From Desulforudis sp. (lineage in GTDB: Bacteria; Bacillota; Desulfotomaculia; Desulfotomaculales; Desulforudaceae), in NCBI GenBank assembly GCA_003604975.1, contig QZIR01000025.1:1-43332 (forward strand): a stretch of DNA of 43,332 nt, given 5' to 3'. The notes beneath the pieces are model-generated. The model was not told the origin of the DNA. It saw only the letters and a list, made by a program, of their open reading frames with translations, and did not search any database. Shown here piece by piece: positions 3,200 through 41,931 of the stretch. How positions within the stretch are numbered: the stretch's first letter is position 1; every line of letters starts with the position of its first letter. Made by a program: the position numbers and the translations under genes.

Positions 3200-3232
3200 C
3201 GGCTGCCGGCGAAAGGCGGCAAAGAAAACAGC

Positions 3233-4558: not shown

Positions 4559-4676
4559 CTTAACTGCTTCCTGGATCGAATTTTGATGGCGTCGGAAAAG
4601 TCCGATCTCCTGCGTTGTGACGGGTTCGGCCAATGGTTACAATTATGACATTCTTTCTGGTATTGTGGAGGAAAAC

Positions 4677-6380: not shown

Positions 6381-6386
6381 GATCCA

Positions 6387-16127: not shown

Positions 16128-16819
16128 TTCCTGCCCTCGTCTGCCGCCAGCCGTCCGTCCCGCAGACGGATCAGCCGCCGGGCCCGGTCCATGACCCGCT
16201 GGTCATGGGTGGAAAAGAGAAAGGTCACCCCCTTGTCCCGGTTGAGCTGCTCCATCAGGTCCAGGATGGTGGCCGCCGCCTCGGAATCGACGTTGGCGGT
16301 GGGCTCGTCCGCCAGGACAATGGCGGGTTCTGAAACCACGGCCCGGGCGATGGCCACCCGCTGCTGCTGACCGCCGGACAGCTCGTCGGGCCGACGGTCG
16401 GCATAGTCGGCCATGCCCACCTCGCGCAGTACGGCCATGACCCGTTCCTTTCGCTCAGCAAGCGGGACGTTCTGCAGGGCCAGGACAAACTCGGCGTTCT
16501 CGTAGGCGGTGAGGACCGGGATCAGGTTGTAGGACTGGAAGACAAAGCCCACCCGGTCCCGGCGGAAACGGGACAGCGCTCCCCGGCTCAGTTCCGCCAG
16601 ATTGCGCCCTTCCAGGTACACCGCGCCCTCGGTGGGCGCGTCCAGGGCGCCGATCATGTTAAGAATGGTGGTTTTGCCCGAACCGGAGGGGCCGCACAGG
16701 GCGCTGAACTCCCCGGCCCGGATATCCAGGTCCAGCCGATCCACCGCCCTGACCTCGACATTGCCCTGCCGGTACACCCTGCTCACCCCGGCAAGGCGGA
16801 CAATCTGCTCCTCGTTCAT
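16124..16819 (-). CDS. ABC transporter ATP-binding protein (LolD/MacB type)
   Basis: This 231-aa ATPase has Walker A CGPSGSGKTT (from residue 42), signature LSGGQQQRVAIARA, Walker B IVLADEPTANVD and the switch His in STHDQRVM. The sequence and length fit the LolD/MacB/FtsE group that energises FtsX-type permeases. It starts one base after the upstream permease stop and overlaps the barrel gene downstream. With the two permeases it should form a membrane complex driving mechanotransmission-type export of lipid or lipoprotein. Confidence 0.93.
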   Translation of the reverse strand: MNEEQIVRLAGVSRVYRQGNVEVRAVDRLDLDIRAGEFSALCGPSGSGKTTILNMIGALDAPTEGAVYLEGRNLAELSRGALSRFRRDRVGFVFQSYNLIPVLTAYENAEFVLALQNVPLAERKERVMAVLREVGMADYADRRPDELSGGQQQRVAIARAVVSEPAIVLADEPTANVDSEAAATILDLMEQLNRDKGVTFLFSTHDQRVMDRARRLIRLRDGRLAADEGRK

Positions 16820-16820
16820 C

Positions 16821-18062
16821 TCATTTCTCCTTGATGCTCTGGGCCGGCAGGACCCGCCCGGCGCGGATGGCCGGATAGATGCCCGCGGCCAGGGTCAGCA
16901 GAAAAACAGAGGCGAGGATGGCCAGCGCGCTCTCCCGAAACAGCCGCAGTTTAAGCACCGGGTCGACCAGGACCCCGCCGGCGCTGTAGTCCTCGCCCAC
17001 CAGACCGCTGAGATCGATGCCGGTCCGGCTCATGTAATAGAACCAGGGCGCGGTGAGCACGATCCCCAGCACCACCCCCAGGCAGCCGAGCCACAGGGAT
17101 TCCACCAGGACCAGCCGCGCCACCTGGGACGGCGCCATGCCCACAGCCAGCATGATCCCGAACTCCCGGCCCCGCTCCAGCACGCTCATCAGCATGGTGT
17201 TCATGATCCCGGCGGCAATCACCAATCCCACCAGCAGCTGCATCAGGTAGTTGAACAGCCGGTCCACGGCGATGAGGCCGGCCAGGTCCGCCTGGGTTTC
17301 GCGCCAGGTCAGGACTTCCATTTCCTGCCCGCTGCTCAGCTTGCCAGCCAGGGTCGCGCGGATGTCCGCCACCCGCCGCAGGTCATCGGTGTACACTGCC
17401 AGAAGCGTTGCCCCGCCCGGTCCATAGCCCAGGGTCTGGCGCAGCCGGTTAAGTGGCACAAGGACAATACCGGAATCCGCCGCATGGTCGCCGGTGCGGA
17501 ACACCCCGCTGATCCGCAACAGCTCGCTGGCCAACTCGCCGTCCTTGTCGGTGACGGTGATGACCATCTTCCGGCCCGGCCGCAGATTGAGCTTTTTCGC
17601 CATTTCCGCGCCGATCAGCGCGCCGCGGCCGTCCGCTTCGGCAAAAAGGCTGCCTGCGACAACGGAGCGCAGGAAAAAATTATGCTCCGTGCCCTCCAGG
17701 GCCGGATCAATGCCCATGAACATCCCGCCCGCGCTTTTGGCCCCGGCCGCAAACATGGCCTGGCCCATGATTCGGGGATAGGCGCCGGTGACCCGGGGCA
17801 GCCCGGCGGCCGTATCCCGCAGCCCACCGGCATCCCGCAGCCAGCGGGAGAGGCTCGGCCGGTCGTTGTACCCCTCCTCGGCCACGCTCACATGACCGAG
17901 GCCCATGATCGTGCTGGTGTTGATCATATTGGTATAGGAATAATCGCCGGAGCCGGTGAGGGTGACCGCCAGGAAAATGCCGAGGGCCACGGACAGCGAA
18001 GTGATCAGGGTCCGCCGTCGATTGCGCGATAAGCTCCGCCAGGCCATGGTATTGAGTCGCAT
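16821..18062 (-). CDS. FtsX/LolE-type ABC permease, second of pair
   Basis: This 413-aa inner-membrane protein has an N-terminal transmembrane helix (LITSLSVALGIFLAVTLTGS), a large periplasmic MacB-like domain (about 45-280) and three C-terminal helices. The FtsX hallmark MLMSVLERGREFGIMLAVG lies between them. The frame is open to 18206, but that extension overlaps the preceding gene. I therefore chose ATG at 18062, 8 nt after that gene stops, giving MRLNTMAWRSLSRNRRRT. It is paired with a similar but not identical permease, suggesting a heterodimer like LolC/LolE. Confidence 0.9.
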   Translation of the reverse strand: MRLNTMAWRSLSRNRRRTLITSLSVALGIFLAVTLTGSGDYSYTNMINTSTIMGLGHVSVAEEGYNDRPSLSRWLRDAGGLRDTAAGLPRVTGAYPRIMGQAMFAAGAKSAGGMFMGIDPALEGTEHNFFLRSVVAGSLFAEADGRGALIGAEMAKKLNLRPGRKMVITVTDKDGELASELLRISGVFRTGDHAADSGIVLVPLNRLRQTLGYGPGGATLLAVYTDDLRRVADIRATLAGKLSSGQEMEVLTWRETQADLAGLIAVDRLFNYLMQLLVGLVIAAGIMNTMLMSVLERGREFGIMLAVGMAPSQVARLVLVESLWLGCLGVVLGIVLTAPWFYYMSRTGIDLSGLVGEDYSAGGVLVDPVLKLRLFRESALAILASVFLLTLAAGIYPAIRAGRVLPAQSIKEK

Positions 18063-18070
18063 GGTCGGGC

Positions 18071-19294
18071 CTACCGGTGATGGATGGCCCGGACCGGGCT
18101 GAGCAGGGCCGCCTTCAGCGCCGGATAGCAGATGGCGACAAGGCCCACGATATAGAGAAAGAGGATCGGCAACAGGACGGAGGCCGGGGTGACCCGGCAA
18201 TACCACTGCGGCTCAAAGGCCACCCCGGCGATGGTGGAGGACTCCTTGACCAGGAAGGAGAAATCCAGCGGTTTTTTGGCAAAATAGAAAGAGACGGGCA
18301 GGCCCGCGGCCAGGGCAAGCAGCGAGGCCAGCGTTATCTGGAGCAGGGTTTCCCATACCACCAGGCCGAAGAGGCGGACCCCGGAAAAGCCGATGGCCTT
18401 CATCACCCCGAACATCGGGATCCGCTCAAAGACCCCCATGAGCATGGCGTTCATAGTCAGCATCCCCACCGCGGCATAGATGATCAGGAGCATGATGGCC
18501 AGCGAGACGTCGGACAGGTCAAGGAGCCGGGCCAGGGTCGGCTGCAGCTGCCGCCAGCTTTTCACCTCCAGATCCGGAAACAGCCCGGCAAGCGTTTCCG
18601 TTGCCGTGTCCAGGGGCAGGGCCGGGTCGGCGCGCAGCAGCACGATCTCGTGCGCCCCCGCCTCCAGGGCGAAAAAGTCCCGGAAGTCCGCGGCCGGCAT
18701 GAACAGGCCCGCCCGGTCGATCCCCTGCCCCACCGATTTCAGGATCCCCCGGACCGTAAAGAGGTCATTGGCCATGGAGCCGTCTGCGGCCTGGCCGACC
18801 AGCACCAGCTCATCGCCGGGCCGCACGTCCAGGATGACCGCCAGTTGCTGGCCAAGGACCACGCCCCGGCGCTCGCCGGGGACAAGCCAGCTCCCTGCTT
18901 TGATATGGCGGTGCAGGCGCACTACCCGCGCCTCGACCTCCGGCTCGATTCCGCGGATGGCGACCCCGGCGGAATTCTCTTTTGCCGCGGCCAGGCCGCC
19001 GCCGAGCAGCCGTGCCGACCCGGTGAATCCGGCCGCTTCAGCCCGGAGGAGAGCAGCCGCCGGATCAGGAATACGAGTGTACAGGTCGGGATCGTCGCGA
19101 TAGCCCGGCGCATGCATCTGCACTTCCCCCATCTCCATGGAGACGACGTTGGTCTCCATGGCCTGCATCCATCCCTCCAGCAAGCCGGCATAAAAGATCA
19201 TGATCGCCCCGGCAAAGGCCATGGCCAGGATCGTCACCCAGGTCCGGTGACGGTAGCGGCGGATGTTCTTCCAGGCAAGGCTCAGCACCAGCAT
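18071..19294 (-). CDS. FtsX/LolC-type ABC permease, first of pair
   Basis: This 407-aa inner-membrane protein begins LSLAWKNIRRYRHRTWVT, followed by a transmembrane helix, a periplasmic domain (about 45-265) and three C-terminal helices. The FtsX-like block MLMGVFERIPMFGVMKAIG is present. It lies 3 nt after the LolA-like gene and 8 nt before the second permease. The two permeases share layout and differ mainly in the periplasmic domain, as expected for a heterodimer with one ATPase gene. Confidence 0.9.
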   Translation of the reverse strand: MLVLSLAWKNIRRYRHRTWVTILAMAFAGAIMIFYAGLLEGWMQAMETNVVSMEMGEVQMHAPGYRDDPDLYTRIPDPAAALLRAEAAGFTGSARLLGGGLAAAKENSAGVAIRGIEPEVEARVVRLHRHIKAGSWLVPGERRGVVLGQQLAVILDVRPGDELVLVGQAADGSMANDLFTVRGILKSVGQGIDRAGLFMPAADFRDFFALEAGAHEIVLLRADPALPLDTATETLAGLFPDLEVKSWRQLQPTLARLLDLSDVSLAIMLLIIYAAVGMLTMNAMLMGVFERIPMFGVMKAIGFSGVRLFGLVVWETLLQITLASLLALAAGLPVSFYFAKKPLDFSFLVKESSTIAGVAFEPQWYCRVTPASVLLPILFLYIVGLVAICYPALKAALLSPVRAIHHR

Positions 19295-19297
19295 GGG

Positions 19298-20113
19298 CTA
19301 CATCCTGCGCAGCTGCATCAGGGAAAACAGCGAATCCGGGAGGTCGACGTCGAAATCAATGGCCTGGTAGGTCATCTCGGTGAATTCACCGGGCTTGTCC
19401 GCGGGCACCATGCGCAGAACCACCGGCAGCAGCCGACCGCCCATCTCCCGGATATCGAGAAAATCCAGAGTGCGGGCCAGGGTCATCTCCTCGTCATAGT
19501 AGCGGGAGACGAGAGGCAGCAGGTCGCCGGCCCGGACGACGATGACGATCTTGCCCCAGACCACCGGGGCTTCGGGTTTGGGAATCAGGGCGAACTCGAC
19601 GATCTCCTGACCGTCGAGGGTTCCCTCAATGGTGATTTCCGGGTCATAGTCCTCGGCCAGGCGTGACTCCTTGACCAGGTCGTCGTTGGTGAAGTGGCTG
19701 CCCATCCAGGAGCCCATCATCATCCCCGTGGTCAGGCGGATCACCCGGTCGGTCTTGGGCAGGTAAGTGTAGAGGGTATCGTCGTTCTTGAGGCTGACCG
19801 TGCCCTTTTCCTTGAGCGGCGAGACAATGCGGACCAGGGATTTCTCCCGCCCCTTGGTCCAGCTTTCCATGACCATGGTCCGGGTATAGTGCTCGGTCTT
19901 GACCACCATCCGCAGGGTGGCGGTGGAGGAGGTGGAGCGCCACAGGTCGTCGATCCGGGCGAGGATCTCACGGGCCCGTTCCGTTTCTCCGTTGGCGGCA
20001 TCCGCCATCCTGCACAGCGGACCGAAAACGACCAGGGCAAAAAGAAGAAGGAAAAGCCCCGCGCTCCGTACCGACGGCCGCCCCGTCCCCCTTTTTGCTC
20101 CACTGTCCGGCAT
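19298..20113 (-). CDS. Periplasmic outer-membrane lipoprotein-sorting protein (LolA-like)
   Basis: This 271-aa secreted protein has a signal peptide (SVRSAGLFLLLFALVVFG, cleavage probably near MADA-AN). The mature part looks like the LolA_like family: SWTKGREKSLVRIVSPL, DTLYTYLPKTDRVIRLT and GSWMGSHFTNDDLVKES. Such proteins have an open half-barrel that shields acyl chains in the periplasm. The frame extends to 20161, but ATG at 20113 has AAAGGAG 5 nt upstream and gives a clean signal peptide. It leads the five-gene operon. Context suggests it is the periplasmic shuttle between the FtsX pair and the barrel; the cargo is unknown. Confidence 0.88.
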   Translation of the reverse strand: MPDSGAKRGTGRPSVRSAGLFLLLFALVVFGPLCRMADAANGETERAREILARIDDLWRSTSSTATLRMVVKTEHYTRTMVMESWTKGREKSLVRIVSPLKEKGTVSLKNDDTLYTYLPKTDRVIRLTTGMMMGSWMGSHFTNDDLVKESRLAEDYDPEITIEGTLDGQEIVEFALIPKPEAPVVWGKIVIVVRAGDLLPLVSRYYDEEMTLARTLDFLDIREMGGRLLPVVLRMVPADKPGEFTEMTYQAIDFDVDLPDSLFSLMQLRRM

Positions 20114-27569: not shown

Positions 27570-28808
27570 TCACGACTTTGTGACCACGTAGACTTCGCTC
27601 GCCGCTCCGAGGGTGATGACCGCAGGCTGCTGTCGGTCTTCGGCATCCAAGACAATTGCAGCACCAAGCACACGCAACCGGGCACCGACTTGAAAATCGA
27701 CCCCTTCCTTTGTTCGAAGGACAGCAGATTTTCCGTCCTGAATGTTGCTTGATAGCTGGACCCGAGCATCCCAACTGGACGGTCCGTGTCGTCCCGTAAC
27801 CGTGAGTTCTATGTCTCCGAACCGTGCGTCGACATGAGGTTCATTAATCATTCGCTGTGTCTTAGCAGTCCAGTACTCGGAGCAGAGCTGCCGTACGCCG
27901 CAGCACGGGCAGTGATCGATACCAGGGCGTGCCTCCGGGGGTGATTGAGACGCCGCTTTCCGTGCGCCCTCATCCCGAGCGACGATGATATCCTCGATGG
28001 AATCGATTTCCTCATAACTAGGAGCAGCGACCTCAACCTCACCGTTTTCGTACGCAAGCACCAGACGATCGGCGAGCCGTCGCGTTGGGTTCAATTCCGT
28101 GTCGCGACTCCAGAGGAGCGCGTAAATCTGGAGTTGGAGTTTATGATTCTCGTGTTGAACACCTGTTTTGAAATCAGTAATCTCACATCTTTCCGGTGAG
28201 AGGACGAGTAAGTCCGCTCTACCTCTCCAGTGGATCTTATTTGCTCGAAGCCCAACTTCAGGGAATACACCCATAGTCAACGGTCCGAGATTCCTTGCCC
28301 TGCTCTCCTTACTCTTAGCCCGAGGTACTGCTTCAGGCAGCAATCGTATACGACTAAACATATTCTGTGTTCGAGTCCGAAGATCTGGTGCCTGCGAACG
28401 CAGAAAACGACTGACTGACTCGAGAAGTCCCTGTGCCCGAGGGTTATCGGCAAAACGGCCCAGAACCTGATCGGCACATTTGTTGATAATAGTTGTATAA
28501 CCTCCGAGACTTTTCATGACATTGAAAACGGCTGGATCTTGGACCGAAGCGCAGCCAGCACTGACCAGACCCTTCATAATTGTCTCAAGTGCTAGGTGCA
28601 CTACGCTACCAGCCGCCGTACTAGGTTGCACACTCTGCGGATATCCGCGCCCCTCCCATATCTCGGGATAGTGTGCTGCGCCAAGCGCCCAACGACGTGG
28701 ACAAGACTCAATCTCCGAGAGCGTAGTAAACGTCATCTCTTTCGGTAGGTCGGGCCACGTTGCTGGAACGTCCGTCGTCCCTGTCACCGCATATCCGGGC
28801 ACTATCAT
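27570..28808 (-). CDS. PD-(D/E)XK nuclease with Cas4/AddB-type four-Cys cluster and extra C-terminal domain
   Basis: This 412-aa protein has the RecB-family nuclease core: GSVVHLALE (His71), RADLLVL (Asp199), EITDFKTG (Asp212, Lys214) and QLQIY (Gln225, Tyr229). Four cysteines bracket it, C36 in SCPRRWALG and C300, C303, C309 in CPCCGVRQLC, the layout of iron-sulfur nucleases such as AddB, Cas4 and Dna2. Residues ~325-412 form an added beta-rich domain, perhaps OB-like. All catalytic residues are present. The gene starts 17 nt after the big helicase with AGGGAGG before its ATG, so it is the last gene of the Druantia-like operon. It probably supplies DNA end processing or degradation; that role is inferred. 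Confidence 0.85.
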   Translation of the reverse strand: MIVPGYAVTGTTDVPATWPDLPKEMTFTTLSEIESCPRRWALGAAHYPEIWEGRGYPQSVQPSTAAGSVVHLALETIMKGLVSAGCASVQDPAVFNVMKSLGGYTTIINKCADQVLGRFADNPRAQGLLESVSRFLRSQAPDLRTRTQNMFSRIRLLPEAVPRAKSKESRARNLGPLTMGVFPEVGLRANKIHWRGRADLLVLSPERCEITDFKTGVQHENHKLQLQIYALLWSRDTELNPTRRLADRLVLAYENGEVEVAAPSYEEIDSIEDIIVARDEGARKAASQSPPEARPGIDHCPCCGVRQLCSEYWTAKTQRMINEPHVDARFGDIELTVTGRHGPSSWDARVQLSSNIQDGKSAVLRTKEGVDFQVGARLRVLGAAIVLDAEDRQQPAVITLGAASEVYVVTKS

Positions 28809-28825
28809 ACATGACCTCCCTATGA

Positions 28826-31800
28826 TTAGCCTATGCGTTCAAGCAGAGTCGCGGTTGCACTGGGGAGGTTTCTTCGCACAACGAGCTCATCGACAAGTAT
28901 CACAGGTGTAGTGACGGAGAACTCCTTGAGATCACGTAGCCCTGGATCGGACGGATCATCTGGCGTTAGCGGACCATGCAGCCCTATGACAAAATTCTTC
29001 CCTGGTCCCGTTGAAGCCAGAATCGGAGCGACTATGTTACCTAACCCTGGGATAGACAGCAGCTTATCCCGCTCCAAACATAGGCCGTCGAGACCTTGAC
29101 GTTCCAGATCTTGGAAAAGCAGGTCCGTAGACCGCTCGAGGCGCGCTGCATCGAGCGTCGGTGCCGTTTCTCGCAATAAGAAGCGCAGGAGGCTCGCACC
29201 CACATAGCGATCGAGGAGATCATGCTCGAACTTGTTCTTGTAGCTCCGAAGGCAGCGATAACAAGATCGATCACAGTTTTCGGGACAGTCTTCTAGGATC
29301 TGCAGAGCGTCTTCGAAAACGACCAGGCCAAGACGACCGACTCGCTGTGCGAAGCCGGCGCCTCCGGGTAATGTGTCATACAAATAGATCTCGGCCTCCC
29401 GCCCGTTGCGCCCCTCGGAGGTGAGCGCTGGCCTATACTCGGCCTGCAACTCCGTGGCTTCAAGTTCAAGTCTCGCACATGCAGCCTTCGTGAGCGCCTC
29501 GCTGATCGTCCGAAGAGCGACGTCAGTCGCTAACAAGCTTGGTGTCAGCGTAAGAGGTGGCTTCACGCTAATGGACACGAGAAGTACGTCACTGATAAAG
29601 TCGGTCCCTAGTACAATCCCTTTGGCCGCACCGCCACCCGAACAATTAGCATCTCTCGGATCGGGGTACGGCTTTCTGTGCGCCGCCCCGACCACCCCTT
29701 TGGGCAATGCTGTCGGTTCGATAAGCCCACACTTCGTACAGTATGTGTACCCCTCTTCACGTGGCCCTCGGTTTGTGACTAAGAGATGCTGCCGTGTGTT
29801 GTGTATTCGGATGTTAGCATTCAGCTTGTTCCACTTGGACTCGTCCGGCGGTGTGGGCATAGTTAGTTTCGCTCGTGTGGCGTAGCTCCGGGCCGGTTGA
29901 TCATCAGGCGATGTCCCCTCCTCCTTGCCCACCGGGTGCGCGAAGCCAGGAGGCCGCAGCCAATATTTCGCTGGACCGAAAGTGCCTACACCACCACAGG
30001 CCTCGCAATCCTTTGTCTCTCCTCGGCTTCCTTCTTCGAGTGTCGTAGTCCGAGCGTAGTGGCAGTATCGGCACTCGTAGTAGAGCCGCCTAGCCTGCCA
30101 GGCACGATAGCGGTCGCTCCGCATCGGCGAATAGATGGCACCGGAGGTCCAGAGTTTGCTTCCAATCCACACCTCCTTACCTGGGGCGTACTGTGACAAC
30201 GCTACAGGAAGTCCTTGCGAGGGTGTGAATCGAAATGCTGGCCGGTAGTGAGTCGTTCGATCTGGATCGAACACGTGAAAGGTTGCTACATCTGTTGGGA
30301 AGGCGTAACGCGGCAAGACGCCCTTATAGAGAAGTCGATCTAAAAGGTTCTCAGACGCTGGATTCCTCCCCGGTCGCTCCTCACCCTCCTCGTCGGGAGC
30401 CTCAAGGCTGGTGCCGCCGTCCTCGCCTTCTACCGCCTCTGACACAGTGCCTCCGACATCCGTTTTGTCAACAGTAGTGGGGTCGAACTCAATCGCCTCG
30501 TCGATCGGTCGCAGAGTATCTTCGATAAGCATGTCGAGAAGCTGCTGGCGATCAGATGCAGTGATCTCGCTCGGGATCCATGCTGCAACATCAGCCTTTA
30601 GGTTCGCTTCGTTCGATCTCAACCACTTTTCTAGATCGATCCGGTTCAAAACTTTTCGGGGGTTTTTAAAGTCTTGAACAGTCCCTAACACCGCAAACAA
30701 GTGAGGTTGGGCCTCCGGCTCAATCTCCGGAAGCCTAGCTTGATGATACCTCTGCAGCAGGTATGCCGTGACATGACGTCGGGCTATCTCAGCATTATCG
30801 AGCGTGAGGGTCGGATCATCAACGGCGCCCCGGATCATCTGATCTGGATGCGTAAAATAATGCTCGTCGTGGCTATCAGCGCTTCCGAATGCTGTCACTG
30901 TAGCCACCGCATTTCCGCGCCTGCCTGCGCGACCAGCTCGCTGCTGGTAGTTTGCACGGGCTGGTGGCATATTGCGGAGCGAGACTCCCGATAGTGTTCC
31001 AATGTCGATACCAACCTCCATTGTCGTTGTGCATGATAGAACATCGATCGCAGGCCTCTCGCGACCTGTGTCCTCAGGGCCCAGATCCACATCTTGGAAT
31101 AAAAGTTCGTGTTCTTCTGCCTTTGAGAACACCTCACCGGCCTGGGCAGTATTAAGCTGTGCCGTATGCTCAGCCGCTATGAGAGCCATCGGGGGTGTGG
31201 GAGGCGTCCGCAGCGCCTCAATCGTACTCGCCCTGTAGTACCCCTTCCGAGCTACAAAGACTGGATCATTGTCGGGATCGATGGATGTAGCGGCATCATT
31301 GCCGCAATTGACGCATGTCGTTCGTCCAGGGAAAGGGCGCTGAGCTGTCCGGCAGGACTGACAGTAGGCCCAGGTGCCACCGATTTCAAGCGATAGTTCA
31401 CCACCCTTCAACCGGAACTTTCCGGGCGCGGTTTGCTCAGCAAACAGCCCAAGAAGCCGAGGCACCCATTCCTTGTCGAACAATCTTCGCGCCTGTATTT
31501 CGCGAATTATCCGATTGATGGCATTGAACTTGCCTGACCTAGGCTGGACGTCCCTTAGCCACCACGCTGGTGGCATACGGCTTAACCAGAAGCCCGGGCG
31601 GTTCCAACAGCGTAGCCAAGCCCTCGCAAGGGCTATCTTCTCGTCAGGAGACTTCGCGTATTGAGGAATATCAGGAAGCGCGTGGACTTTGGGAACGTGC
31701 CTGGGGCACTCGATGATTGACGCGAGCGCCAGCGACTCGAGTCCATAGTAGCGATCCGCGAGGGACTTCGTGATCGCTCGAAGCAGCGATTCAGGTGGCG

Positions 31801-34378
31801 CCGATCCCCGGAGTCGCACCAGGAGTTGCAGAAGGGATGTTTCCTGAGTCAGGGCTCCGCTCCTAACTTCCTCCTCGACGATGTTTTCATCTTGGAAGCT
31901 CTCCCCTACCTTTAATTCCGGTCGAAGGCGAACCCCCATTTCCTTCGCAGCAATCAGCACTCCAAGGTAGAGGTCTTCGAGTGAAAGGAGGTTTGCGACG
32001 ACCGGAGAGTTAGCAAGGCGCGCGTATCCAGAAACGATCAGTGGACGGAGAGCATCCTGGGTCGAGTATGTTTGCAGATTCGGAGCGAGCCGCGCCGCCG
32101 TCTGCCGTGAGTCCGAAAAGACAAGAACCTTCCTTCCACGAAGAGGGGCGAGCCGTGTCGCAGGTACGGGACTCGGGGGCTGTACCTGGATCTGTTTGGC
32201 AATCAGCGCTTGGAAGGGTTGGTCGCCCTTCGTCTGATGATCTTGAACGGAGGAACGTCCGAAAGCGGCACTTTCGCCGCAGACTCCGCACGGCCGAAAC
32301 TCACCCGGTGCAGTGTTGCGAGGCTCGTCGTCCGCCTCAGGCAAGGCCGAACGTCCAGCGCGTATGTAGACCTGCCGGTTACGTGGTCCAAGATCCTGGG
32401 GGTTCATTCGACCAGTCACGAGGTCGTATTCTGCAGGCTCGACTGACTCAATAAAAACCGGTTTTTCTAAGAGCAAGTCGATGGGCGCGAGTTCGTCGAC
32501 TTGCCCCGTGAGTGTGCGAAAGGCTCCTCCTGGCTCAGACCAGAGAAAGTTTGGTTCATCGACATCATTCGTGTATGCACGGCCGTAGGCTGTGCCACAG
32601 TTACGGCATGTGTAGAGTTCTAGTACACGCGCTCCACATTCGCATGTGTCCCGCGGCTGGCTGAACAACTTCCCAGCGGGACCGCCGCGTTGTTCTGTGG
32701 GGAGGCTCGAACACTGGGGGTCCATGCAGACCCAGAGGCCAGCGAGTCCACGATAAAACGAGTGTACTCTGCAGGGTAGCAGACCCGGCTCTGTAGAATC
32801 TCTCCTCGCAATGCTACCAAGCGCTATCAGATTCGTGACCGCCCGAGCGGCGATGTCAACAGGAACGCTGCTGTCGAACAGTGCTCCTCCGAGCGAGTCC
32901 ACCGGCTGAGCCTCGCTCATGGTGATGTTGATCAAGTTCGCCATCGGCGCGAACGAGACCAAGGCGTCGTAGAGCGAGCGCCGTAGCTCCCACGGTCGAT
33001 CAATGTTCCGGTATTCGAGGAATGATCCGATCTGTGAGAGACGCACATCGTCGCTATCAGCATCGTAGAACGCTAGCAGGTCTATCGCGTCCAGTGCAGC
33101 AACGTCCTGCACTTTTCCCTTGTCCGCACCCGGTCGAAGGAGGAGGTCTCCTTCGACTTTCCGGAAGTCTCCAGGGTCCTTCCCACTAAGTTGCGCGCCG
33201 AACCTCAGGGCGTAGTCGGCATCCTTGAAGCTCGCGCTTGTGCAAATCACCTGTAGGCGATCTGCTGAGATACCCAACCGCATGCGGAGCCGTCGGATCA
33301 GTAGAGCTACCTCGGCACCCGCAGCTCCACGATAGAGGTGAGCCTCGTCGATGACGAGAAGGAATCGTTCTTCAGGATTCGCGTGCAGCCAGTCTCGCGT
33401 GTTATCAAAGATTGGGCGCTCGAGCGGTCTCATTAGCATGTACTCTAGCATGGAGTAGTTCGTCACGAGAATGTCAGGCGGCGCCTTGTGGACCTCGTGG
33501 CGCGTGAACAGCTCAGGATCGCCAGGAAGAGTCACGCACCGTTTGAAAGCGCCACTTCTCGCATCCCGCCACCGAGAGCCTCTACTGCCATACCAGGAGA
33601 GAAGATCGGGCTTGGCTGGCCACTTCCCGCGTTTTTTCAACTCGCTCACGAGCGCATCAGCTGCCTCCTGCTGGGGGGACGCGGGGCCCCGAGCAATTTC
33701 CAAATTGCGTACATAGTACTTCCCAATAGAAAGCAGGCGGTCTTTGTCCTTATCCTCGTTACGGACACCAGGGTAAAGAGTCCGGCTGGTGTACCTCGCG
33801 AACCGTGCGGGGCGCCCAGACCACTCCACGAACTTCTCGACGATCCTTGGGTCGCCAAAGAGCAACCTCAAGCGTCCGAGTTGATCGTTTACAAGTGCAT
33901 TCATTGGGTAAAGTACCATCGCGCGGACAGCTGGAGTTTTACCAAACTCCCGGCCCTTGCTCTTTGCTTCCCGCGCCAGCTTACCCAATATCGGCAGAAG
34001 AAAACATTCCGTCTTACCCGAACCTGTTCCTGTCATGACAACAAGGCTCCGCCCCTCAACGAGCGAGAGCTTAGTGGAAATCGCTTGATGCTGGTAAGGC
34101 GGGTCGTGGATGAGCAGCCCGAGTTCACCCTCCACCTTGGACACCGCTGAAATAACCTCAAGTGTGGCGGGGTCGAGGCCAAGATCTCGAAACGCGACAC
34201 CCGTCTTATACCGAGGCGTACTCTCCAGGTACGGACGCTGATGGATCACCCCAGACTCTTCCAAGAGTCGCCGCCGCTGCGCTACCAGGATCGGATTACT
34301 TATATGGTAAGTAGCCTCAATATAGTCTTCCAGCGCATGGTGAAGTTGTTGAATGGTCTCCCCGATAGTCAGGGACAT
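28826..34378 (-). CDS. Giant DEAD/DEAH-type helicase with DUF1998 C-terminus (DruE-like)
   Basis: This 1850-aa protein has Walker A TGTGSGKT (Lys122), motif Ia [20 protein letters not shown] box [12 protein letters not shown] (344-347) and a helicase C domain with [13 protein letters not shown]. Motif [14 protein letters not shown], lies near residue 1146. Several zinc-type Cys pairs occur (CECG, CRNCG, CGVCG, CQSC, CVNCG, CRYC, CEACGG, CTKCG). The C-terminus shows [19 protein letters not shown] near residue 1700, the DUF1998 mark. Size and layout match DruE of Druantia. DrmA and DrmB of DISARM also carry DUF1998 but are shorter and have different neighbours. Its ATG has GAGGAGG upstream, 22 nt after the 360-aa gene. 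Confidence 0.85.
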
Positions 34379-34400
34379 ATAGTCCTCCTCATCATGGTCG

Positions 34401-35483
34401 TTACTTACTTCCCGTTATTTCCTTAAGCCACAGCACTTCCCTTACGAAGCGAACCTCTTCCTCGAGTTCGGCTTCCGCCACTCGATATGCGAACAGGCAC
34501 CCCGGAGCTACCAGCGGCTCACCGATTGCATCCCATCTGCGGCGAGCCCACATCGGGACAGGTGAGAAGAACTCAATCACTCGCGTGTCCTCCGGACCAG
34601 GATGTATTCTGAATCGCTGAGGCTCCCCACGCTGAGCATCAATCGCCATTTGTAGATACCATGCCTCGTCACATCCTCGCCATCGACTTCCTGTGATTGG
34701 TAAGTCAATGAGGCGTTCCGGGTTTCCGTTGCTCATTTTTACATAGCACCAAAGATCCGCGCCGTAGGCTTGACTTCGACGCGCGACAAACCGCCCTGAC
34801 TGGGTGAGTGGCTTTACCCACCTCCCGCGGTAGTAAAGTACTCCCCGCGCAGTATCCAGAAGCGATAGCCCAGGGACGTCACGAGAAGGCTGTGCTGAGT
34901 CCAGCAGTTGGTTGAGATGTGCAACATGCTGCGCGGATGTCTCAGGTAAAGGGGCCCTCAACCAGTCTTTGTACGAAATCTCGATGAGGCCTAATTGGAG
35001 GAGTTCAGAGCGCAGATCCTCTCCCTGAACAGGGCTCAGGCGCCGCAGGTGGTTTATGTACTCAATACGTTCCTCAAGATCTTCGGGGAGTGCGGAGAGT
35101 TGATCCGACGTGACGCCAATCAGGATTACAGATCCACTTTCTCGGAAGACGAAGCTGGCGGGGGCTGCGTACAGGAGCGCCGAGGCTTTACCCCCCGAAT
35201 CTCTCTCTACATCACTGTGCTCGAGAATGTCGCCATGCGCGATTATTGCCTCAAGGGTCTCTTCCACAAGGCCTTTAATAGAATCAAGGTCATCGACGAG
35301 GCCCCGCAGCGGACGCACCACGCCCCGCACAAGTGTGGGAGCGGTGCAAGGGCACAGGAAACTCGCCATCCTTCGTATAGCACCCGAAATCGCTTCGACC
35401 GATGCGAGATCAAGCGTTCTAGGGTCAAGTCCCAATTCGGCCACCTTCTGTGCGTTGACCTCTGCGGCGCTGAGTTGTCTCAT
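34401..35483 (-). CDS. Unrecognised 360-aa protein of the Druantia-like operon
   Basis: I do not recognise this protein. It has no membrane segment and no nucleotide-binding motif. Features are [20 protein letters not shown] near residue 45-65, a middle segment [39 protein letters not shown] and an acidic C-terminal tail. ATG at 35483 overlaps the stop of the 984-aa gene by 4 nt (ATGA), with GGAG 6 nt upstream; an in-frame TTG at 35495 is less likely. The coupling suggests the two products act together. By position it could stand where DruB-D stand in Druantia type I, but I cannot show homology by eye. Confidence 0.72.
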
Positions 35484-38434
35484 TTCCAACTCCAACTTGC
35501 GTATATTTCACCTGGTGCCACCCGCGAATCAAGATGCCAGTGGGTCGTGATGACCAAAAATCTCGCTGCTCTTGCTAAAGAAGGGACCTCAAATAGTCGA
35601 GCAACCCCTGTACGAAGGTCCTCGCCAGCCCACTCCTCGACTTCCGCGGGGGCGCTAGCGAGCCTGAGCGCCAATTCGGAGAGCCACATTGGGTTTTTCG
35701 CTCCTGTAGGCCTAACTCGGCGGACGACCGAACGGCTGATAATGATCTCTCGACGCGGCCCTGGTGATACGACATGGAACTTCGTAGCGAGAGAAGCCAT
35801 ATGTTGTACTCGCTTATCGCAAGTTGTGGCGGAGAGTGCAGGACAGGCAGAAACTAGTTCAAATCCGATGCTAGCCTCTTCACGACGTTTGGAGATTTCT
35901 TGCTTCAAATTAGTACGTTTTGAAGGATTGTTTTCCGCGAATATCTCCGCCGTCGCCCAGGTTTCACCCCCGATCAGCCGAAATATGTGCAGTGCGAGGG
36001 TGCGGAGGACGTCGCGCTGGAAAATCATTGAGAAGAGGTCTCCTGGAAGTCTCGCACTGCCCCAGGTCCTGGCAGCCGAAACTAGGCGAAGGACAGAATT
36101 CGTCGAGCGCTCTCTCGCGTCGATGAACGGGTCACATTGAAGATCGACCAAAGCCCGAACCGAGGGCGGAATGATAACAGCAGCAGAGTACCGCCCCTGG
36201 CGGGCTACATATAGACCGCCTTCGGTCGGCACTTCGTAGGTAGTTGCGGGCTTGAGCGGCTGCTCGGTTAGTGGTGCCTCGAACGCCATTCGCAAAACCT
36301 GTGGTGGGGTGTCGTACCCACTATCGTCCAGTAAGCGTGCCACATGGCTCTTGCCATTCCGGTGGACAGCCCATCGGAGTGGAGTAAATTCGCGCTCGCA
36401 TCGGACTGAAAACGCACCAAGTTCATCGCACGTGAACTTGATATCGCAGAGCCGAGCCGTGTCGTAGGCGAGTTGTGCCTCTCGTGTCTCTTTGAAGTAT
36501 TTCTCGAAGTGAAGCCTCCAGAAATCCGGAGTCACAGGGAGAGTGATAGGCGGGAGATCCTTAATCAAAGTGATCTCGCGGGCCTCATTTTCTCCCAGCG
36601 ATACAGAACACTTGACTTTACGACCCGTGGGACCCAGCAATGAAATCTCAACACGTCCCTCCCAGAGCTCTTCAATTGTGGGCGAAGGAGGATCGATCAG
36701 AACTACTAGTGGACCGTTAGGGCTAATGCCCGGGGACCATGGCCGAGCCTCTCGGATTCGCATCACGACATCGAGATCGCCGAGCGGCTCAACTTCGGCA
36801 GACGAAGTGATACGAGTAGATAAGCGGATAGTGTGGAGGCCTACAGGAAGCTGCGGAAGCTGAACGAAGATCGGCTCGCCAGGAGTTAGAGACTTCAACT
36901 CGAGAGAGATGCTCGGCATTGCTTCCATTGAGACGAGGAGTGATGAGATCGGGTGGTCCGTTTGGATGGCGAGGCATGGGCGCTCTGATGCCAACCACTC
37001 GCCATGACCTTCACCGTCCCATACGACCGCACCTAGACCAGCAGGCCAGACCTCGATGGTCTTCGCCTGCACAAGCCCGAGGCGGCGTAACGCTTCATCC
37101 CAGTCCTCGGTGAGTGCAGTTGGTAGTTCTAAGATTGCTGCGTGTACACCCTTACACTCAAGATCAATAGGTTGAACGTAATTATTAGACGATATGGGTC
37201 CTGCGGTCGTGATTATGATGTAGTGATGGCCGGGTCGAACGCGTAGGCTGCGCGATTCATATGCTAGGCCATCAGATGCAATCTTGAAGAGCCAGATTGG
37301 TCCGGGACGAAGGAGGCACTCCGTCCGGAGCAAATATTCGAGGAGTGCGTCTTTCTGCTCGAACTGGAGCAGCACCTCATCATTGCTAGGCCACAGAGAC
37401 AACTTGATACTTTGAGCGCCGTGAAGGCAACGACCTCGCGCAAGGGGGCGGCCTGACATACCCGCGACTAAACATCGTGAGCCCATAAGAATGTCGCGAG
37501 TGTTGGGAAATCTAAGGAGTAAGTGTGAGAGATCTGGAATTTTGAGAAACACCTCCCAGCGCGATGCATCAGTAGCGTTGGGTCGAAGTACGAGGGATGG
37601 CTCGATGCCCAGCGCAGCTACTTCAGTTCGCGCTTCCTCGGGTCGACGAGCCGAAACCGAACCCGTTCTGTGTCCAAGTGCTTGTCCGCTGATTTTCATC
37701 CGCTCCTGAGCAAAACGGCGTGCACCGCTCAACCACTCACGTGCCCGGCGCTCTCGATCAAGATCCGCACTGATCCTTTTCAGAGTTGCAGGGTGTATGA
37801 GGCTATCGGTCACGAGTTGACCCTGCAGTAGCAGAGCCGCGGAGATTTGGCCGACCAGATCTGTCTCTTGTGCAAAGTTTTGAAAACGCGAGGTCCCGTT
37901 CCAACTCCTGGCTGCGATATACTCGCCTAGCTTATGCGGCGATTCAAATAGATCTGCAGAGAAAGAGTGACGAATTTCGTAGAGGATACGAGCGAGTTGA
38001 CGCTGGAGGTCCTGGGGTAGGATGGCGTGCGTGATTGGCCAGCAGATGATGGAGAAGTGTTCGGCCCAAGCTCCCGATGGCCGAGCGCCTCTGAATTTAT
38101 TCTGGAACATCCGAAAGCAATTGCGAATCCAGTAGCGGTCTCCATGAACGGTCCAACCTGGTGTCTGCTCCTCGAAAGTCTGCCAGTACTCGTCGCCGGA
38201 GTATTCATAACCAAGCTCAGCGGCATAGACTATCCATGCTAGCGCGTGTTCTTCAAACGGGGGATTTTGCGCGATATGCTTATGTATTGATGCTCGTAAT
38301 GCTTCGATTTCAGGGAGTTTCAGGTTGTGCTCTAGGGCGAACAGAGGTCGGCCACCCGCATTTCCTCTAATTGAGGCAAGTTCTCGAAAGTGGTCCCCAA
38401 GGCGACGTCCCCAGTGTGAAAGATCGCCGTTCAC
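35480..38434 (-). CDS. Unrecognised 984-aa protein of the Druantia-like operon
   Basis: This long soluble protein is unrecognised. Residues 1-260 look helical (EEHALAWIVYAAELGYEYSG, then WTVHGDRYWIRNCFRMF). The middle (about 300-700) is strand-rich with Trp, Gly and Pro turns, suggesting several beta-sandwich-like repeats. The last part is mixed and ends SWSWK. No Walker, DEAD, nuclease or methyltransferase motif was found. It starts with GTG 6 nt after the DUF4338 gene stops, with a weak GGAAA, and overlaps the 360-aa gene. Both junctions imply coupled translation in the operon. It may be a scaffold or recognition subunit replacing DruB/DruC; this is inference from position only. Confidence 0.72.
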   Translation of the reverse strand: MNGDLSHWGRRLGDHFRELASIRGNAGGRPLFALEHNLKLPEIEALRASIHKHIAQNPPFEEHALAWIVYAAELGYEYSGDEYWQTFEEQTPGWTVHGDRYWIRNCFRMFQNKFRGARPSGAWAEHFSIICWPITHAILPQDLQRQLARILYEIRHSFSADLFESPHKLGEYIAARSWNGTSRFQNFAQETDLVGQISAALLLQGQLVTDSLIHPATLKRISADLDRERRAREWLSGARRFAQERMKISGQALGHRTGSVSARRPEEARTEVAALGIEPSLVLRPNATDASRWEVFLKIPDLSHLLLRFPNTRDILMGSRCLVAGMSGRPLARGRCLHGAQSIKLSLWPSNDEVLLQFEQKDALLEYLLRTECLLRPGPIWLFKIASDGLAYESRSLRVRPGHHYIIITTAGPISSNNYVQPIDLECKGVHAAILELPTALTEDWDEALRRLGLVQAKTIEVWPAGLGAVVWDGEGHGEWLASERPCLAIQTDHPISSLLVSMEAMPSISLELKSLTPGEPIFVQLPQLPVGLHTIRLSTRITSSAEVEPLGDLDVVMRIREARPWSPGISPNGPLVVLIDPPSPTIEELWEGRVEISLLGPTGRKVKCSVSLGENEAREITLIKDLPPITLPVTPDFWRLHFEKYFKETREAQLAYDTARLCDIKFTCDELGAFSVRCEREFTPLRWAVHRNGKSHVARLLDDSGYDTPPQVLRMAFEAPLTEQPLKPATTYEVPTEGGLYVARQGRYSAAVIIPPSVRALVDLQCDPFIDARERSTNSVLRLVSAARTWGSARLPGDLFSMIFQRDVLRTLALHIFRLIGGETWATAEIFAENNPSKRTNLKQEISKRREEASIGFELVSACPALSATTCDKRVQHMASLATKFHVVSPGPRREIIISRSVVRRVRPTGAKNPMWLSELALRLASAPAEVEEWAGEDLRTGVARLFEVPSLARAARFLVITTHWHLDSRVAPGEIYASWSWK

Positions 38435-38440
38435 TTTCCG

Positions 38441-39634
38441 CTACCAAGTCGGCCCTGGCCCACCGTTCTGCAGGCACTCTATTATCTTACACCGTTCGAA
38501 ACGCTTGTAACGCTCGTCACGCTCGGCCCGTGGGATCACCCAACGATTCAGGCAGTACTGAGAAATCTCAGCAAGTGGCATGGTGCAGGATCGCACGTTT
38601 CTGTGCTTCCCTAATAGTACTTCACGCCAGTTCATTGCCAAAGGAATAGCATAGACCTCGCGTTCAATCCCGTGCTTTAAGATTGTATTGCCATTTATGC
38701 CAAGTTTCTCAAGCGCCGCTCTGGCTACACGGATCTTCCAATTTGGCCCCATCCCAAACCGATGACCTGATGCATATGGGTGTCCTTGGGCCTCAAGATA
38801 CGCGCGCAATGATTCAAAAATTTCACCGGAAAGATGGAAATGGCCAAATCCTTTTGTGATGCCAATTCGCATAAAGCGTGGCCCATCGGGGACAGCAAGG
38901 CGATTGTAGATTGATGATCTCCCAAGCGCAGAAGTCGTCGTCAGGAGCACCAGTCGTGCGCGGTTCTCGTTTCCGCTGATGACTGCCCGGAGACCGAGGT
39001 ATTTACGTTCATAGGCGGCTTTGATTTCATCGCTACCTATCATCGCAGCCACAAGCTTGCCGCCAATGAGCATAGAATATGGAGGGAGCGCTCCGAGCAC
39101 ATAGGCATCCATGACATGGACTAGGCGCTGGCGACGATCATTATGGGTCCATCCAACCCACGCATCTCGGGCTGAGAGGTTAAAAACCGGGTCTCCAAGG
39201 GCGAGTAGACCGATGAGGCAGCCGTTCTGCCGGTCCCGGACAAGGAATCGAAGCCTCCGCCCGAAGCCCTGAGAGACAGGAACCGACCAGAGCAGGCATG
39301 CGAGACGAAACAGACGTGATTCAGTTGTATCAGCCTTGACCTCTATAAGTTCCGGATTGATGCGGGCTGGATCAACCTCCCACCCATTTGCAAAGTTCTT
39401 AAAAAGTTCTGGCCTGCAGGTTGCTATGAACGACTTGTTCTGGTCCAGGACTTCCTGGCGATGCATTGAATGGAGATCGCGAATCCTCTGCTTCGAAATC
39501 TCTCCCTCTACGAAGTAACCTTTACAGTTCTTGGTGAATCCAAGATCTAAAAGGCGCTCATGAATCATCTGGTGCAACAAATGCACTTCTTTCGCAGGCT
39601 TATTTGCCACACCATCTGTCTCACACTTACTCAT
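38441..39634 (-). CDS. druA: DUF4338 protein, Druantia DruA-like
   Basis: This 397-aa protein fits the DUF4338 family that defines Druantia type I (DruA). It has RRLRFLVRDRQNGCLIGLLA near 127-145, FNLSARDAWVGW (151-162), VMDAYVLGALPPYSMLIGGK (174-193), a following SDEIKAAYERKYL, and LVLLTTTSALGRSSIYNRL (228-246). Biochemistry of the family is not established. The frame is open to 39733, but ATG at 39634 has GGGAGGAGG upstream and gives the usual family length. It is the first gene of the five-gene operon that ends with the nuclease. Codon use is less GC-biased than in the housekeeping genes, suggesting transfer. Confidence 0.8.
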   Translation of the reverse strand: MSKCETDGVANKPAKEVHLLHQMIHERLLDLGFTKNCKGYFVEGEISKQRIRDLHSMHRQEVLDQNKSFIATCRPELFKNFANGWEVDPARINPELIEVKADTTESRLFRLACLLWSVPVSQGFGRRLRFLVRDRQNGCLIGLLALGDPVFNLSARDAWVGWTHNDRRQRLVHVMDAYVLGALPPYSMLIGGKLVAAMIGSDEIKAAYERKYLGLRAVISGNENRARLVLLTTTSALGRSSIYNRLAVPDGPRFMRIGITKGFGHFHLSGEIFESLRAYLEAQGHPYASGHRFGMGPNWKIRVARAALEKLGINGNTILKHGIEREVYAIPLAMNWREVLLGKHRNVRSCTMPLAEISQYCLNRWVIPRAERDERYKRFERCKIIECLQNGGPGPTW

Positions 39635-39794
39635 GCCTGCCTTGCCTCCTCCCTGAGGCTCCCCACTGTTGTGAGTATGAGATATCCCCTGAGGTGAAAA
39701 TGTTCCGAGGATTGGGGAATAATTGTCAGTCAATTAATTATGATACTTTATATGTCCTATATCAGGAAAGAACTATTCAGGGGAGGTTTCAACA
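39635..39794 (-). promoter_or_regulatory. AT-rich leader of the Druantia-like operon
   Basis: This 160-nt spacer between the DUF1156 remnant and druA is AT-rich around 39715-39765 (ATTGACTGACAATTA and TATCATAATTAA on the minus strand). It is the only likely promoter region for the five downstream genes. No -35/-10 pair with good spacing could be fixed. Confidence 0.4.
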
Positions 39795-40000: not shown

Positions 40001-40666
40001 TTATTTTTTCAAGTCGCGCAGATAAGCCACCAGATGATGCATCAGAGTCGATGGGTTGTCACTGCCACACTCTGCTGTATGATTTTCCAACCGGACAGCG
40101 TGAGTTAGGGCATTCGGCAGTTTATCTGCAAGGGCTTGAAAAAGACCAGTCACTCCCTTCTCGTATCCGGGTATGTGTCGCTTCAGATCTCTGATGACTG
40201 CGGCGCAGATGGAACCTGACGAACCGGTGGAACCGAAGGGCCTGGAGGTATAAACAAAGTGGAGGAGCAGCCAGATCTCGAAACAGGGAACAGAAGTGAT
40301 AGCGGCAATGGAAACATCCCTGCCCAGCTTCACTGTCTGGATTCGATTCAGGGCCTCTGTATAGGTTGGGTGGCGGTCCCGGTCGAAGACACAGAAAATC
40401 CGGTTGTATTTTTTCTCCCGCCGGTACTCGGTCAGGGCAAAATTCACAACACTGCGTGGCGATGAGCCGCACTCATCACCGGCAATCCGGATGTTGGCGG
40501 TGCTCAGTTTGAAGGCATCGCGAAGTTCTTTTAAATAGTTCGGTTCAGTCTTGCCCCCTTCGCAGACGATCAACACCACATCATAAGGCTCACGCTTTTG
40601 TGCCTCTCGACGCAGGGCAGCGGCTTTTCTTGCCTTTCTCCGGTGAAAAAGCTGATCCGGCGCCAT
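40001..40666 (-). CDS. rloB: RloB-like protein (AbiLii-type, Toprim-related)
   Basis: This 221-aa protein matches the RloB family: basic N-terminus (RRKARKAAALRREAQKRE), IVCEGGKTEPNYLKELRDAF at about 33-52, FDRDRHPTYTEAL and SVPCFEIWLLLHF. The acidic Glu and Asp-x-Asp positions recall a Toprim-type metal site. Its start shares one base with the rloA stop (TGATG), giving tight coupling. RloA/RloB pairs correspond to the AbiL abortive-infection type and are found in restriction and defence loci. Function with RloA as a phage-triggered effector is inferred from family knowledge. Confidence 0.85.
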   Translation of the reverse strand: MAPDQLFHRRKARKAAALRREAQKREPYDVVLIVCEGGKTEPNYLKELRDAFKLSTANIRIAGDECGSSPRSVVNFALTEYRREKKYNRIFCVFDRDRHPTYTEALNRIQTVKLGRDVSIAAITSVPCFEIWLLLHFVYTSRPFGSTGSSGSICAAVIRDLKRHIPGYEKGVTGLFQALADKLPNALTHAVRLENHTAECGSDNPSTLMHHLVAYLRDLKK

Positions 40667-41931
40667 CAGAGGGCAGCCTCGCTGGTATACGGCAAGGCAC
40701 CGTAGCGGCCGTTGAGATACCCCTTTTGCAGGGCTTCCCCGGCCCTGGGCTTAAAATCGGTGAGAGGGTAGAGATTGCTGGCGTTGGCCTGATCCTTTTC
40801 CACGAACCAGACCTGGTCCCGCCGAACCAGATCCTGGTCCAGAAGGGATGTGTCATGGGTGGTGAAGATCAACTGCCCGTTGGCCTGATTGGTTTTGCTG
40901 GCATGAAACAGGGAAAGGAGAAACCGCATGATCTGCGGATGCAGGCTGGTATCAAGTTCGTCAGCAAAGAGGATCTTGCCCTGGGCCAGGATGTCGAGCC
41001 ATGGGCCGGCATAGGCGAAGAGCTTGCGGGTGCCATCCGATTCTTCCTCCAGGGGGAGATGGACGGAAAGTTCACCGCCCCGCACCGGATGGAGGAAGCC
41101 CACGCGCATGGTCTTCTTGCCGTCCATTTTCTGGCGGAGATCTTCCTTTACGGCCTCCGGCCAGTCTGGAGGCAGGTCCTCAACCGAGAAATCCCTGGTT
41201 TCCATGACGATATCGGAGATGCTGATGTCGGCTTCATTCATGAAGGCGAGGATGTGTTGTTTCTTCTCCTCGTCCTGGCAGACCTTCATGCTGTAGCTCG
41301 GATTAAGCAGCATCCCGTGCCCGATGACAAAGAGCCGCTGGAACCAGGTGAAGACCGGCTTGAGCTGTTCACTGTTCCACTGGATGGCCGTGGAAAGAAA
41401 CAGGGCATTGCTCCTGGTCATCTCCTGCCACTGCTTCTTGCGGCCGATGAAGCGACTGCCGAAATACCATTCATAGCCGCGGTCCGGCAGGAACGTCCTT
41501 TCAAACCAGCGCTGGGAACGCCCTTCTGGATAGGCGATCAGCCATTCGTTGGTCACCCGTTCCCTGGTTGCGGCAAAACCGTACTGATAGCGGACACCTT
41601 CCTGGATGAACTGCACTTCGAACTCACTGGGACGGGACGGGCCAAGCTCATTGAACAGGAACGGGTTGACCGCGATCTTTTCGCCTTCCTGACGCTCCTT
41701 GGCCGAGGAAACGACAAACTGCTTTACAAACCCCATAGCGCGGATGAAGTTGCTTTTGCCGCCGGCATTGGGGCCGTAAACAACTGCCGAACGAAGCAGC
41801 CTAGGCAGCCCCGAAATCGGGCTGTCAAATGTATTGGTCTCCAGCAGGTCTTTTTGGGGAGTTGCAGTCAACGAAAGCTTCCGAGGCTCCCAAAAGGACC
41901 GATAATTGGCTACGCTGAACTCAATAAGCAT
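40666..41931 (-). CDS. rloA: RloA-like AAA ATPase (AbiLi-type)
   Basis: This 421-aa protein is an SMC/ABC-like AAA_21 ATPase. It begins MLIEFSVANYRSFWEPRKLS, with Walker A YGPNAGGKSN (Lys59), an SDGTRKLFA signature-like block, Walker B ILFADELDTSLHP and switch His in FTTHDTSLLDQ. Length and pattern fit RloA/AbiLi. It is followed at once by rloB. AGGA lies 8 nt before the ATG. Its leader overlaps the decayed end of an AbiEi-type antitoxin gene. The base composition resembles the chromosomal genes more than the Druantia-like operon does, pointing to a separate acquisition. Confidence 0.87.
   Translation of the reverse strand: MLIEFSVANYRSFWEPRKLSLTATPQKDLLETNTFDSPISGLPRLLRSAVVYGPNAGGKSNFIRAMGFVKQFVVSSAKERQEGEKIAVNPFLFNELGPSRPSEFEVQFIQEGVRYQYGFAATRERVTNEWLIAYPEGRSQRWFERTFLPDRGYEWYFGSRFIGRKKQWQEMTRSNALFLSTAIQWNSEQLKPVFTWFQRLFVIGHGMLLNPSYSMKVCQDEEKKQHILAFMNEADISISDIVMETRDFSVEDLPPDWPEAVKEDLRQKMDGKKTMRVGFLHPVRGGELSVHLPLEEESDGTRKLFAYAGPWLDILAQGKILFADELDTSLHPQIMRFLLSLFHASKTNQANGQLIFTTHDTSLLDQDLVRRDQVWFVEKDQANASNLYPLTDFKPRAGEALQKGYLNGRYGALPYTSEAAL

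Follow-up and report, generated by a model that had tools for sequence, protein, structure and literature searches.

Druantia type I belongs to the tested antiphage systems; Doron et al. (2018) reportedly defined it as the gene set druABCDE. Bell et al. predicted that the C-terminal Vsr nuclease domain of type I DruE is inactivated (PMC12458937), and how type I Druantia destroys phage DNA is unexplained, this domain being predicted dead. For type III, Wu et al. described DruE as a helicase-nuclease that acts on ssDNA-containing intermediates, and they proposed DNA processing by DruE as the common Druantia core, with partner proteins deciding activation (PMC13192584).

The sequence analysed here (the window) is a stretch of 43,332 nucleotides from Desulforudis sp. 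(contig QZIR01000025.1). The reading of its ORFs confirmed an operon of five co-directional genes at positions 27570–39634 (Table 1). It represents a real Druantia type I variant that occurs across phyla, with one unmodelled subunit (P984) and an optional, intact-looking nuclease. On balance, we take the operon for an antiphage system related to type I and distinct at subtype level, in which P984, DruA and DruD would activate, DruE would translocate and the nuclease would cut. Its interest lies in the lack of a known working cutter in standard type I Druantia: in a relative with its own intact-looking nuclease, one can test directly whether DNA cleavage downstream of DruE constitutes the effector step.

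Table 1. The five genes of the operon in the window and the regions predicted in P984
Feature	Position	Strand	Description
druA-like (DUF4338)	38441..39634	-	397 aa, ATG at 39634; longest ORF 430 aa, TTG at 39733
P984	35480..38434	-	984 aa, GTG start; occupies the place of DruB and DruC
druD-like	34401..35483	-	360 aa; PADLOC DruD1
druE (DruE1 type)	28826..34378	-	1850-aa YprA/DUF1998-family helicase
Cas4/AddB-like PD-(D/E)XK nuclease	27570..28808	-	412 aa; four conserved Cys, C-terminal OB-like domain
P984, helical N-terminus (model)	residues 1-275
P984, alpha/beta region (model)	residues 275-455
P984, Ig/FnIII-like beta-sandwiches (model)	residues ~457-760
P984, helical C-terminus (model)

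Gene order and Druantia families

The first-pass annotation had described five minus-strand genes with short overlaps or gaps, and this layout stands. The spacing is 6 nt between druA and P984; P984 and druD overlap by 4 nt (ATGA); a 22-nt gap precedes druE and a 17-nt gap the nuclease gene. AGGAGG stands before the druE ATG and GGGAGG before that of the nuclease. Promoter and terminator scans stayed close to chance level. Three of the five genes match the PADLOC models for DruA, DruD and DruE1, at 469, 388 and 1953 bits, respectively. The Pfam matches in the operon are DruA, DEAD, Helicase_C, MZB and PDDEXK_1, and a search of its proteins against NCBIfam gave none above the cut-off.

The product of druA matches PADLOC DruA1 at 468.7 bits and Pfam DruA (PF14236) at 283.6 bits, which upholds its earlier assignment to DUF4338. 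The 360-aa protein, earlier listed as unknown, belongs to the PADLOC DruD1 family, with full-length matches to PDLC00010 (388.3 bits) and a score of 359.3 bits for PDLC00012. That it is related to E. coli DruD depends on the name given by PADLOC: BLAST found no recognisable similarity between the two, and hhalign gave at most 2.5% against DruD of E. coli, Pseudomonas putida and loci L032 and L033, though in register over about 230 columns. Since the DruD1 models fit this group of loci so well, its DruD is probably already among the PADLOC type I seeds; P984 and the nuclease are not. PADLOC 2.0.0 has no model for these two proteins, so such loci would probably be scored as incomplete type I.

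DruE matches PADLOC DruE1 at 1952.6 bits over residues 2–1847 and Pfam DEAD, Helicase_C and MZB, as expected for the DruE-like DUF1998 helicase first described here. Across 12 full-length homologues, the motor motifs Walker A (TGTGSGKTE), DEAH, TSAS and QRaGRAGRR lie in conserved blocks; the last 120 aa, after the Cys-rich MZB motif, contain no invariant (D/E)-x-K, and the C-terminal nuclease-like region of DruE itself appears inactive. DISARM (DrmA plus DrmB) was rejected as an identity for the operon, since the best DrmA score was 42 bits against 1953 bits for DruE1.

The type I references were E. coli strain 165 (L048, annotated druABCDE), P. putida pKF715A and two genomes of the same order as the window. 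The E. coli locus resembles the window in DruA (45% identical), DruE1 (33%), a DruD-family protein and the order A ... D E; it differs in having DruB and DruC where the window has one 984-aa protein. In the DruE tree, a clade with 100/100 support unites the window, 11 other P984 loci and Nitrosococcus watsonii, apart from DruE of E. coli and P. putida, although several long branches leave the deeper branching order unsure. This clade and the matches to the DruA, DruD and DruE1 models agree, in outline, with the first reading of the locus as a divergent Druantia or a new subtype.

When 84,980 species genomes were scanned for close relatives of P984, 19 loci in other genomes emerged, distributed over Planctomycetota, Acidobacteriota, Gemmatimonadota, Chloroflexota, Omnitrophota, Fermentibacterota, Desulfobulbus and others. 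In 16 of the 19, P984 is preceded by DruA, and DruD and then DruE follow it in all 14 loci that extend far enough. This order is not due to chance, since unrelated genomes from many phyla share it, mostly at 47–82% protein identity. The druA-P984-druD-druE order is thus conserved elsewhere, but the fifth gene is not a fixed part (7 of 13 loci). A survey of 398 genomes from the window's phylum for DruD, and one of 199 genomes from the L003 phylum for P984, added nothing to the loci found before; the system is therefore rare. On the N. watsonii plasmid NC_014316.1 (L022), in which PGAP names only DruA, the genes shared with the window encode DruA, a 955-aa P984 homologue (34%), DruD (PDLC00010, 490 bits) and DruE (56%); unlike the window, it has no nuclease gene.

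Some of these loci show features of their own. L009 and L010 have a longer, more distant DruA (682–689 aa). DruD of L010 (6849–7911) seems frameshifted, with two tblastn pieces in different frames, and may have decayed or reflect an error of sequencing. ORFs flanking the operon in two unrelated phyla (L009, 6190–7773; L012, 11405–12943) have N-termini that, by eye, resemble GHKL (gyrase B/Hsp90-like) ATPases. In two Chloroflexota loci, ORFs that look nucleotidyltransferase-like, again by eye, immediately precede druA (L018, 538–1395; L019, 7120–7911).

The nuclease gene

The nuclease matches Pfam PDDEXK_1 at 61.7 bits and PADLOC Cas4 at 36 bits. In seven homologues, H71, D199, D212-F-K214 (D-x-K), Q225 and Y229 are invariant, as are C36, C300, C303 and C309. 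We take the H/D/DxK residues with the four cysteines to mark Cas4/AddB-type PD-(D/E)XK enzymes with an Fe-S cluster; the protein probably has such a cluster and, given its conserved catalytic motifs, looks intact. Its structural model is of moderate quality (pLDDT 69) because it was built from seven sequences. The model aligns with the Cas4-family protein ACE1 (Z 12.6, 3.7 Å, 222 residues), with AdnA (Z 11.6) and also with AddB, Dna2 and MGME1, and the top Foldseek matches are Cas4 and MGME1. A sequence search for relatives of solved structure gave none. Residues 327–412 align with the OB domains of RPA, BRCA2 and CST (Z about 8); the label OB-like is tentative, since these matches are tied with unrelated complement domains.

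The PDDEXK_1 match, the four cysteines and the predicted Cas4/AdnA-like fold confirm the Cys4 PD-(D/E)XK nuclease of the first-pass annotation. The enzyme shares the core and predicted fold with Cas4, AddB-AdnA and MGME1, and the four cysteines with Cas4 and AddB; the C-terminal OB-like domain and the operon with DruE are its own. PADLOC 2.0.0 includes a PD-(D/E)XK model, DruK, whose match to this nuclease is weak and partial (43.3 bits, positions 106–243 of 326). At E≤1e-12 among 297 genomes, DruK found only the member of this nuclease family in genome G449 and two partial matches in frames of about 1000 aa. DruK and this nuclease belong to the same superfamily, but with 43 bits over part of the model an identification as DruK is doubtful. 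The earlier statement that the published set has no dedicated nuclease holds for the standard type I loci of E. coli and P. putida, where no nuclease gene follows druE, and for the account of Bell et al. (PMC12458937); DruK and the type III DruE helicase-nuclease (PMC13192584) limit it.

Thirteen loci, the window and N. watsonii included, have sequence beyond druE and can be judged. The nuclease gene lies directly after druE in seven (the window, L002, L003, L009, L012, L013 and L017), with its start no more than about 50 nt from the stop codon of druE, and is missing in six (L004, L005, L018, L019, L020 and N. watsonii), among them complete four-gene loci. No replacement fused to DruE was seen in the loci that lack it. 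Five of these six genomes have no full-length homologue elsewhere, with one partial match of 22 bits; plasmid records, including those of N. watsonii, have none, and outside the locus the 11 genomes searched gave nothing but two weak partial matches. Divergence of the nuclease tracks that of DruE across the seven loci (r=0.85; as high in 5 of 2000 permutations) and also that of P984 and DruD. The DruE tree demands at least three gains or losses of the gene, for example one gain and two losses. In L005, the sister of the nuclease-bearing L009, a transposase-like ORF was recognised by eye beyond druE.

Always next to druE and diverging with it, yet missing in some loci, the nuclease looks like a co-inherited but optional subunit; its absence from six of 13 loci means that it is not essential to the architecture. 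The first proposal of a nuclease added as a component in its own right holds insofar as the gene is present and intact-looking, and was overstated as to a fixed part.

In the mechanism that we favour, DruA, P984 and DruD would form a recognition and activation assembly that loads or licenses DruE on phage DNA with exposed ssDNA. DruE would act as an ATP-driven DNA translocase or helicase. In about half of the loci the nuclease, with its probable OB domain for ssDNA, would ride with DruE and cut the strand that DruE exposes; where the gene is missing, host nucleases or a replication block may serve instead. That the nuclease would supply the cutting step is suggested by the absence of conserved nuclease residues from the DruE C-terminus and by the published accounts of type I and type III DruE (PMC12458937; PMC13192584). 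No phage assay of a P984-type arrangement appears in the literature found.

A possible, if somewhat doubtful, alternative is that DruE, DruA, P984 and DruD make up the complete defence, and that the nuclease plays an accessory part in processing or against escape, trimming DNA ends after DruE, for example. The complete four-gene loci and the repeated gains or losses in the tree agree with this, and standard type I (E. coli) works without such a gene; on the other hand, wherever the nuclease occurs it is directly after druE and shares its history.

The P984 family

P984 has no credible match in PADLOC 2.0.0, Pfam or NCBIfam, and so keeps its initial listing as a protein without assignment. The family is not described in the literature found, which did not extend to the tables in the supplements of Doron et al. 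and Bell et al.; an earlier mention in such a table is possible. With the 360-aa protein in the DruD1 family, one protein, and not the two first supposed to replace DruB–D, stands where DruB and DruC stand.

The operon could also be ordinary Druantia type I, with P984 as a fused and diverged DruB-DruC and the nuclease as a frequent passenger, which we think unlikely. P984 occupies the same position and has a similar total length, DruB and DruC together measuring about 1000–1190 aa in four loci; the nuclease, for its part, is missing in six of 13 loci, but co-diverges with DruE where it occurs. PADLOC gave no DruB or DruC match for P984 or its N. watsonii homologue; in P. putida pKF715A, the scores were 762 bits for DruB, 902 bits for DruC and 386 bits for DruD. 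The profile comparison proposed at first was run with hhalign: the P984 family against DruB and DruC stayed below 1% in every comparison, in line with an altered middle of the operon, whereas for the 360-aa protein the low hhalign values stand beside a DruD1 match of 388 bits that removes it from the unknowns. The N-terminus of DruB carries a CoiA_N-like zinc motif, a match not given by any P984 member, and the coiled-coil-like centre of DruC has no counterpart in the P984 model. We therefore rejected the fusion on the PADLOC models and hhalign, with the caveat that BLAST can barely recognise DruB and DruC from one accepted or likely type I locus to another, as between Pseudomonas and those of the window's order; since they are so poorly conserved, a remote homology with P984 stays conceivable. 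The hhalign comparison does find P984 relatives in other systems, at 99.8%.

Other identities of P984 were considered. A ZorC-type EH_Signature in its N-terminal domain was rejected, with Pfam matches in 0 of 18 members and no PADLOC ZorC match for P984. A search for a phage or viral-contig origin gave no relatives, and a sequence search for relatives of solved structure gave none. The model of P984 has a mean pLDDT of 75.7, and no catalytic fold was recognised in it. A fold search of the PDB with it gave common sandwiches of the Ig/FnIII type and nothing else (Z up to 8.5); these matches mainly cover the sandwich part and are uninformative on function. The natural reading of this model is that P984 may be a scaffold or a sensor.

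Searches of plasmids revealed distant P984 relatives in Leisingera, Paracoccus, Rhizobium and Azospirillum. Aligned together, three of them matched the P984 profile at 99.8% (E 3.8e-30, 754 columns), and shuffled controls reached at most 0.2%. The Leisingera (L036, 11188–28886) and Paracoccus (L053, 17824–34500) plasmids carry a composite locus, apparently unmodelled as a unit, in two blocks on opposite strands. One strand encodes the P984-like protein and an SNF2 (DpdE/BrxHII-like) helicase; the other encodes a weakly DruD-like protein, a NERD-UvrD nuclease-helicase, a 2050–2090-aa DruE1-type helicase (1528 bits in Leisingera) and a DUF4338 protein. The SNF2 and NERD-UvrD genes and the two blocks distinguish this locus from the window.

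DISARM-like loci with a P984-like protein occur in Rhizobium ruizarguesonis TA1 (L052, 4823–19879) and Azospirillum ramasamyi (L037, 3389–16991). As in the window, this protein lies beside YprA-family helicase genes, but split DrmA (682–702 bits) and DrmB (282–291 bits) replace DruE, UvrD and NERD-UvrD are present, and no DruA or DruD is annotated; the Rhizobium TA1 locus additionally has an SNF2 helicase gene.

NERD belongs to the PD-(D/E)XK superfamily (PMC12458937). The P984 family thus occurs with DruE-type as well as split DrmA/DrmB helicases, in each case near a nuclease of that superfamily, and gives Druantia and DISARM-like systems a second common component besides the helicase. As a tentative proposal, P984 may be a shared adaptor or sensor of YprA-helicase defences in at least three helicase contexts, in which a separate PD-(D/E)XK-superfamily enzyme would supply the missing nuclease (Cas4-like here, NERD-UvrD there). 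The three would be the Druantia variant, the DruE1 composite of Leisingera and Paracoccus, and the DrmA/DrmB loci of rhizobia and Azospirillum.

Genomic surroundings

The G+C content is about 0.51–0.58 across 24–42 kb of the window and mostly 0.57–0.66 over 6–24 kb, a dip consistent with an acquired island. Housekeeping genes lie at 9.7–14 kb and encode an Obg GTPase, an amino acid kinase with a PUA domain and a cytidylyltransferase. That the operon serves DNA repair or the maintenance of a mobile element, around an MrfA/YprA helicase, is very improbable: these helicases do include repair branches (PMC12458937), but the DruE1, DruA and DruD families come from a defence system that has been tested, the spread over phyla is patchy, and an AbiL-type pair adjoins the operon.

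This AbiL-like pair, a second defence module, lies directly upstream of the operon on the minus strand (40001–41931). One gene encodes an AAA_21 ATPase (AbiLi 326 bits, also AriA 128 bits), and the other encodes an RloB/AbiLii-like protein (RloB 123 bits). In addition, the genome of the window contains two more large DruE/YprA-type helicase genes, with open frames of 1770 and 1579 aa, on contigs C24 (about 15934–19908) and C59 (about 2445–7106).
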